Assembly: GCA_963922205.1 (NCBI GenBank)
Contig: CAWUHX010000004.1
Location: 2,108,001 to 2,172,000, forward strand
Length of the DNA: 64,000 nt
Direction of reading: 5' to 3'
Origin: Romanomermis culicivorax
Lineage: Eukaryota > Nematoda > Enoplea > Mermithida > Mermithidae
Part shown: positions 54,808 to 61,377 of the stretch, piece by piece
Layout: every line of letters starts with the position of its first letter
Numbering within the stretch: the first letter of the stretch is position 1
Translations under genes and position numbers: made by a program
The notes under the pieces: generated by a model
What the model saw: the letters and a program-made list of their open reading frames with translations, nothing else
Told to the model about the DNA's origin: nothing
The model's database searches: none

Positions 54808-56580
54808 ATGTGTGAACACTTACAAATTACGTTTGTACAGTTGTTTTTGATAATAAAATTGACCTTGGTAGCATCACTGTTTCTAGGGGTGAGTTTGTCA
54901 GCACCGGCGGCTCAGTATCAATTTTGCGGTCTCTCAAGAAGCGGACACCCACTTGAGTTACCCCAGCGTGTAGAGTGTAAACCACCGCAATCTTCATGGA
55001 GCCCGCGGCGCATGAATGTTACGGTGTATGTCCCTAGCTCAGACCCGATTACAACCACAGCGTGGAAATGCACATTGCGCACCCGCAAAGTCTGCACCAA
55101 CACTGGTTTCTTCAGCTCTAGGGGCATTACTGCAGACGTCATTACCACTCAGCACTTAGCGCCTGCGGCCTGCACGCTAGCACATCGCACTAAGATGTTT
55201 GGCTCACAAAAACTTGTCGGCATTCGCCCTGGCTTTTATAGCACAAACCAAACATTGGAAGTGATGTACGAATGGTGCTGCAGCGACGTCTGCAAGACAG
55301 TGACTAACCTCTTCATCGAGGAGGGACAAGTCGCTTCGTGGGACGGCACTACGGCCCTAAGCACCTTAGGCGATGTAGGTGGATGCAGTCCCACCGCAGG
55401 CCAGTGCACTACTCTAGACGGGGTCATTGTCTGGCCTGCACAAAACTTCACGGCGCGGTGTCATTATCACCCCAAGGGAAATTACACTGCGTCCATGTCA
55501 GGGAACCACGTCATCATCGATGATCTACAGGTTGCCCTCAAGATCCCGGGAAACTCCCGTGTCTTCCAACTGTGCCCAGAACTACGTTCCACCACAGTCC
55601 GGACGGATCAGGGTCTTCTCCTTCGCATCCACGGGAGATACAATTTGACCCAAAACTTGTTCAGAATGGCAAAGGACACCCGTCCCGATCCTGTCAATGC
55701 CAAACTGAACTATCTGGCTCAGCAGATCAAGGAGTCGGAAATTAACGGTTTCCGGTTCACCTGGCTTGAGCTCTGCTCTCACGCTCAACGCTATCTTGAT
55801 CTGACTTGGCAGTTGCTTCGCTTCGACCCTACCTTGGGTGCCCGGGCATTCCTCCAGAGGAATGACCTGACGGCGGAATTCACAGGCGATGCACTGACAA
55901 TATGGCCGTGTCAGAAGGTCAACGCCACCTACGTTTACCACTCGTACCGGGTGGGAAACGTTTGCTACAAGTACTTACCTGTACAAGTCGGCGGCACCAT
56001 CTATTTCCCCACCCCCAGTGGTCCAGATCTCATTAAATCTAGCCCAATCGTGCCGTGTCATCACCACTTTACAGGGATTTTCCAAAATCGCTCGGGCTGG
56101 TTTACTGAGTCTGGCGCGGTCCATGTGAGCCACATCCCACTGGAACTCTTCTGGAAGCAGCGCTTCAACATCACTCACTTTGAGGCACCGGCGCTCTTCC
56201 ATGACCAGTTGGCGATGACCCCTTCAAACTTTGCCTTCTTTAAACAGTACGTTTACAAGACTGAGCAAATTGAAGCGGTACTCAACCGGCTGGTAAACTT
56301 TACCGCTGGTCTATCCCTGCAACCAGACGCCATCTACCAGGCCTTTGCAGGGGTAGGAACCGACATCAAGGCCTCTCTGGAAGGTGTCGGTTTGGCGGCA
56401 AACCATGTTATTACGGGTCAACAACACACCCTCGCCCAGGGCTTGCATGCTGTCCTGAGCGGGCCGGTCCAGTTGATCTTTAACATCCTAATTACCCTGA
56501 CTGTGCTGATCGGTGTCGGATACCTTGCCTATCTCGGTGTATCTTATTATCTCAGCTACCGTCTGCGGAGCAAACAGGTC
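54808..56580 (+). CDS. env: Envelope-like glycoprotein region of env-pol
   Basis: Signal peptide, a secreted Cys-rich domain and one C-terminal transmembrane segment make a type I membrane protein layout. Sequons include NVT, NQT, NFT, NYT, NLT, NAT, NRS and NIT. Blocks such as GVIVWPAQNFTARCHYHP look like a structured viral-type ectodomain, but I could not assign a fusion-protein class and saw no clear furin site. The helix-prone segment before the membrane (about 56,270-56,450) has no sequence I can name. Cell-surface or entry function is inference. Confidence 0.75.

Positions 56581-61377: not shown

Follow-up and report, generated by a model that had tools for sequence, protein, structure and literature searches.

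A long terminal repeat (LTR) element of the Ty3/gypsy type occupies 16.2 kb (positions 47166–63374, plus strand) of the window, by which we mean the whole 64,000-nucleotide stretch analysed here, taken from contig CAWUHX010000004.1 (2,108,001–2,172,000) of Romanomermis culicivorax, a worm parasitic on mosquitoes. Between gag and pol, this element carries an envelope-like glycoprotein segment (Env) that shares one open reading frame (ORF) with pol (Table 1). The order of domains along 53692–61377 is a signal-like segment, an ectodomain, a transmembrane segment, a first protease domain (PR1), a linker, a second protease domain (PR2), reverse transcriptase (RT), RNase H (RH) and integrase (IN). 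The frame opens 1.1 kb upstream of the methionine (Met) at 54808, and in the window copy gag (52080–53981) sits in a different frame from env-pol. Membership of Ty3/gypsy is indicated by LTR ends with a short target duplication, the PR–RT–RH–IN order, a Ty3-like RT and a Ty3-type capsid. The LTRs, about 1.43 kb each with TG...CA termini, are identical at 1,410 of 1,429 aligned bases; the gag frame matches PF19259 Ty3_capsid (E 5.1e-8, 33.0 bits against a cutoff of 29.1); and the closest solved structure to the RT is that of Ty3 (E 1e-60), with other families next at 3e-36 and weaker. Near the end of the integrase lies a stretch that we take to be GPY/F-like. The ORF listing gave no frame of 200 amino acids or more in the leader (48596–52079), nor in the 557 bases separating the integrase stop from the 3' LTR, where an errantivirus-style env 3' of pol would lie.

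The Env segment has the build of a membrane-anchored glycoprotein. A hydropathy scan places a signal-like core at residues 5–21 and a transmembrane-like core at residues 554–570 (numbering from 54808), nine sequons fall at residues 70, 147, 213, 225, 279, 372, 427, 454 and 497, and 16 cysteines are invariant in Env alignments A1 and A2. Searched against Pfam, the ectodomain matches PF24664 (Monjiviricetes_fusion) with 54 bits at a cutoff of 27, and the same profile is found, at E 0.01 or better, in all eight members of alignment A2, which come from five families. Because the match lies above cutoff and recurs across the alignment, the ectodomain is, as judged by profile, of viral type, which agrees with its description as envelope-like in a sequence-only reading that preceded this work. 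Borna G also matches the ectodomain, below cutoff. Env is probably a class III fusogen: the Glycoprotein_B profile matches two of the eight A2 members, a hint only for that class, and the A2 profile finds herpesvirus gB in the Protein Data Bank (PDB) at a whole-sequence E of 0.0016, yet with a best single stretch of only 0.22. Single-sequence searches were less productive. Env alone, run against 5.8 billion proteins, yielded 7,156 candidates and none at E 0.01 or better; its one match in the PDB was at chance level; IMG/VR viral contigs gave no result with one sequence or with the alignment; and INPHARED phages and PHROGs gave none with segment 55489–57288 (query P0003).

Table 1. Features of the element and its insertion site in the window.
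Feature	Positions	Strand	Basis and remarks
Target site duplication CTAT	47162–47165 (left), 63375–63378 (right)	n/a	Flanking bases compared
5' LTR	47166–48595	+	TGTCAC...GTGACA ends; pairwise alignment with 3' LTR
Long leader	48596–52079	+	Begins TGGCGAGGCTGG, possible primer binding site
gag frame	52080–53981	+	Stop to stop; Ty3-type capsid ~52410–52856; ORF list, Pfam
env-pol frame	53692–61377	+	Stop to stop, 2,561 codons; ORF list
Env	54808–56586	+	Signal core ~54820–54870; transmembrane core ~56467–56517; PF24664 match ~55693–56130
PR1	56650–57090	+	Retropepsin-like, DTG; hhalign to PR2 profile
Linker	57091–57651	+	Ser/Arg-rich, then Pro-rich; translation
PR2	57652–58050	+	Retropepsin-like, DTG; Pfam PF13975 gag-asp_proteas 4.1e-7
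RT	58450–59301	+	Pfam RVT_1 2.3e-33
RNase H	59340–59789	+	Pfam RT_RNaseH 1.4e-36
Integrase	60130–61200	+	Pfam Integrase_H2C2 1.2e-21, rve 5.9e-8
3' LTR	61934–63374	+	Pairwise alignment with 5' LTR

The arrangement is common in the genome of the worm (359,112,060 bases in 595 contigs), for which the accessible part of PMC10879605 describes a published long-read assembly with RNA-seq mapped for annotation. The protein of a COX1 gene in this genome shows 97% identity to that of R. culicivorax. Candidates were scored best-first (73 of 3,684 for P0003, 68 of 2,320 for PF24664 and 79 of 8,720 for PR2–RT), which makes the copy counts minimum values with a bias towards intact copies. With P0003, which covers the later part of Env, the transmembrane segment, PR1 and part of the linker, at least 73 copies were found at 97–100% identity among the best 73 candidates. 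No stop parts the transmembrane segment from the protease in most intact copies: the stretch is open in 72 of the 73 scored. Frames of at least 3,042 codons occur in 53 of these 73, versus 2,561 codons in the window copy. A search with PR2–RT, which is independent of Env, likewise speaks against most intact copies lacking env. Among its 79 best matches, 61 have frames of at least 2,190 codons, the distance from the integrase stop back to the Env start and hence a length proxy for the presence of Env, and 45 have at least 3,042. A frame of that greater length, measured back from the integrase stop, extends as far as the beginning of gag. In such copies the three genes are therefore most likely in a single frame, and the window copy is most likely frame-shifted between gag and env.

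Further families in the same genome have the same plan. PF24664 gives at least 68 genomic matches above cutoff (best 68 of 2,320), none at the places found with P0003, and no match in any of 14 control genomes. Of the 68 places, 20 were read; long frames were one ground for choosing them, and their open-frame counts therefore do not represent a random sample. At these loci, the main Env matches are 36–47% identical to the window and the RTs 54–65%. Env lies upstream of RT in 19 of the 20 and gag upstream of Env in 17; L024 has no Pol match, and L019, L020 and L026 have no gag match. Open stretches extend from Env to PR at 14 loci, from gag to Env at eight and from gag to IN at five. At L035, integrase fragments also precede Env, in addition to the integrase that belongs to the locus and follows Env; these fragments probably derive from a neighbouring element.

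Public proteins extend the pattern. A profile search with Env–PR–RT returned 20 at E 1e-10 or better, seven of which contain PF24664. The complete series GAG–ENV–PR–RT–RH–IN stands in one protein four times (source labels in brackets): P0007, 2,499 amino acids (lgn); P0009, 2,327 (ena); P0010, 2,293 (ncbi); and P0011, 2,294 (lgn with ena). P0006 and P0008 begin within Env and continue into Pol, and P0012 is Env alone. The other 13 of the 20 have no Env match, and in none of the 20 does Env follow the integrase. Two proposals of the sequence-only reading are thereby upheld, namely that Env and Pol form a single frame from the signal-like segment to the integrase, since 53692–61377 is stop-free with its Pfam domains in that frame, and that the order is gag–env–pol, which recurs in many copies, in other genome families and in public proteins.

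RT and Env trees have several groupings in common (P0010 with P0011; P0007 with L026, at moderate support; a group of seven rows; and L027, L033 and L035), which suggests that the two domains have descended together over a long time. The RT tree was built from public hits with no named reference clades and without P0021–P0024; three of its rows were cut too long (911–992 amino acids), and 284 columns were kept. Its base is unresolved: the Env arrangement needs three changes on it, with one also compatible, and a single origin is not demonstrated. Substitution patterns indicate purifying selection on Env. Omega in 21 pairs from the L033 family is 0.09–0.30 for Env and 0.02–0.13 for RT, and two close pairs with few changes give Env values of 0.27 and 0.39; between-family pairs, with saturated synonymous sites, were left out. 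For eight copies of the window family (28 pairs, two of the eight copies carrying stops), pooled piN/piS is 0.142 in Env, 0.087 in PR1, 0.235 in the linker and 0.077 in PR2, the region running to the end having been dropped because frame-shifted L002 spoiled it. Insertions appear fairly recent, because LTR pairs differ at few positions: 19 of 1,429 in the window copy and 6 of 1,417, 8 of 1,423 and 35 of 1,462 in three further copies, the ones of ten for which LTR pairs were obtained. Target duplications in the further copies vary, with AAAT on both sides of C112, none visible at C209, and the left flank of C5 outside the captured sequence. Given the many copies, the other families, the public proteins and this selection, a chance fusion in a single copy or an assembly artefact has a negligible probability. 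Conservation of Env is also the sole point in favour of the glycoprotein being retained for something besides entry, for instance fusing host cells to one another or blocking related elements or viruses. Such a role is very improbable: Env is retained within mobile copies alongside Pol, and no lone host gene turned up, though none was searched for.

How Env is made is a separate question. The sequence-only reading took Env to be the N terminus of the product, and here it was probably mistaken. The residue at 54808 is Leu rather than Met in three of eight window-family copies read (L005, L007 and L008), and the open frames of L005 and L007 measure 3,100 and 3,098 codons. Elsewhere the nearest upstream Met is often distant from the signal core: 45 residues in P0011, 60 in P0010, 68 in P0009, 73 in L023 and L029, and 130–132 in L025 and L030–L035. 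Because Met 54808 is not conserved, several families lack a Met near the signal core and most scored frames are of gag length, a Gag–Env–Pol polyprotein is a likelier product than an Env-first protein. In P0007, P0009, P0010, P0011, L027 and L033, a simple hydropathy scan finds exactly two strong hydrophobic segments, which flank Env and would leave Gag inside, Env outside and Pol inside. Translation as a polyprotein is favoured by these bracketing segments, by the lack of an Env stop in open copies and by the weak start; the skipping motif NPGP occurs in none of 11 proteins (P0002–P0012). Our reading, to which we assign a probability of roughly 0.6, is that a Ty3/gypsy lineage has captured a Monjiviricetes-type, probably class III, glycoprotein, which it carries in frame with gag on one side and pol on the other and makes as part of a membrane-threaded Gag–Env–Pol polyprotein. 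The anatomy is well supported by the sequences, and the mechanism is likely.

According to this polyprotein model, ribosomes would translate Gag first, in the cytosol; an internal signal sequence would then direct Env to the lumen of the endoplasmic reticulum; and the transmembrane segment would halt transfer, so that Pol would be synthesized on the cytosolic face of the membrane. Two cleavages, to which the signal sequence and the retropepsins point, would follow: signal peptidase would act behind the signal sequence, so that a hydrophobic tail stays on Gag, and a retropepsin of the element would free Pol from the Env tail. Gag, Env and Pol would arrive at the same patch of membrane at a constant ratio, in a manner somewhat like that of flaviviruses, and the role of Env would be to carry the element from cell to cell or from host to host. 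The flavivirus polyprotein runs from capsid through an internal signal sequence, envelope protein and anchor to cytosolic enzymes; it resembles the present order in outline, but the proteins are unrelated and there is no reverse transcription.

Several observations weigh against the polyprotein. In the window family, frame length only stands proxy for the presence of gag, and the 20 loci from other families were selected partly by frame length. A Met lies close to the signal core in L026 (7 residues) and P0007 (24), and at 38 residues in L027; L033–L035 have a Met within the core; and in L029 the gag match is preceded by a further, third hydrophobic segment. The sequence TTTTCAG, which we take to be a nematode-like splice acceptor consensus, stands 93 nucleotides before Env in L022, L027, L028 and L036 and 30 nucleotides before it in L023 and L029, at an expected density of only 0.46–0.87 per 10 kb. 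A weaker acceptor-like site lies 72–78 nucleotides before Env in L030–L035, L037 and L038, which brings to three of five the Romanomermis families with such sites just 5' of Env, and in L027 an in-frame ATG follows the TTTTCAG site within 15 nucleotides. These acceptor-like sites, with the ATG that follows in one family, make a spliced messenger RNA a serious rival. An RNA skipping most of gag would yield Env–Pol and the unspliced RNA would yield Gag, leaving the genomic order and the Env–Pol fusion intact but Gag unattached to Env. Splicing to make a separate protein is described for Cer1 in the available text of PMC10309623. We nevertheless consider this account unlikely, at a little under half the weight of the polyprotein: the window family and L026 have no such site in the final 300 nucleotides before Env, L029 has no ATG from its acceptor-like site to the signal core, and many copies also keep gag in frame, which splicing would not require.

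Splicing might instead remove the Env cassette from some of the RNA, yielding Gag–Pol with Env as a minor product. A crude scan of nine loci found acceptor-like sites between the transmembrane segment and PR2 in eight, but consensus donors in the linker between gag and the signal segment in only two, the near-identical L027 and L028, and we hold this arrangement to be highly improbable.

The window family differs from its relatives in having two protease domains. PR1 and PR2 align by hhalign with a probability of 90.1 over 117 columns, where BLASTP alone aligns only 33 residues. PR1 has no match at any of the 20 loci read from other families, so that among the loci read it occurs only in the window family. 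Given its homology to PR2, its constraint (the piN/piS noted above) and its lack of a match at those loci, PR1 appears to be an extra protease domain acquired by the window family. The protease triad varies among families, being DCG in L027 (5843–6226), DSG in L029 (6010–6384) and L026 (5957–6331), and DTG in L035 and the window.

A search of the open-access literature, with Repbase, most subscription papers and most preprints outside its scope, found no element of gag–env–pol order. The Retroviridae order gag–pol–env is not that of the window element or its relatives. Errantiviruses, like the window element, combine a Ty3/gypsy-type pol with a viral envelope, but their env is encoded 3' of pol, whereas the window Env is of Monjiviricetes kind and lies 5' of it. 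The errantivirus (gypsy) envelope is likely baculovirus-derived, according to the accessible part of PMC12440569. The nearest parallel in content is Anakin, a group of mosquito BEL/Pao elements bearing a chuvirus glycoprotein, and so also LTR elements with a captured glycoprotein of Jingchuvirales kind (PMC7642597, available text). Anakin has a BEL/Pao polymerase, whereas the RT, capsid and integrase in the window match Ty3-type families; the position of its glycoprotein is not given in that text and is last in the figure legends (PMC7642597). The same text describes Tas, Cer-7 and Roo, BEL/Pao elements with captured viral envelope-like proteins, two of the three in nematodes, but with the envelope downstream of the polyprotein and of other virus origins (PMC7642597). 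Cer1 of Caenorhabditis elegans is, like the present lineage, a nematode Ty3/gypsy element with no stop between gag and pol (PMC10309623, in the portion available). Troyka, going by the part of its description available, has CG...CG ends and 3-bp duplications and was set aside as prior art.

In the env-bearing elements compared, the envelope lies 3' of pol and so can be made apart from Gag–Pol. If the polyprotein model is true, an Env kept inside the polyprotein shows that elements can do without this separation, and it raises testable questions: what fixes the Gag:Env:Pol ratio, how enzymes mature while attached to the tail of a glycoprotein, and how such particles bud. The element also points to capture of a Jingchuvirales-like glycoprotein by Ty3/gypsy; a 2023 survey, in its accessible sections, reports no clear case in which a Gypsy element had captured such a glycoprotein (PMC10084718). 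More broadly, these copies could belong to a lineage of their own among reverse-transcribing elements with an envelope, perhaps viruses infectious to invertebrates. Gag, a class III Env and Pol would be made there as a single polyprotein threaded through the membrane, Env being in the middle, so that particles of a retroelement would be produced in flavivirus-like fashion, and the window branch would have added a second, membrane-proximal protease; we regard the chances of this as evenly balanced.

The non-coding parts of the element contain several repeats. Dispersed repeats with a CTGACGTCTGCAAC-like core occupy 49799–50465 of the leader. A 41-nucleotide unit is repeated three times in tandem at 61540–61662, between the integrase and the 3' LTR, and a 34-nucleotide sequence at 61902–61935, which ends in the first two LTR bases, has a second copy about 490 nucleotides upstream (61412–61445). 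Elsewhere in the window, inspection by eye picked out ORFs resembling fragments of non-LTR reverse transcriptase on the minus strand (22284–23257 and 25706–26305), together with exon-like ORFs similar to tRNA isopentenyltransferase (10568–11185, minus strand) and type I topoisomerase (34685–39313). The 4 kb at 40001–44000 have a strong negative AT skew (-0.23 and -0.29), and a tRNA-Glu gene lies at 43008–43079.
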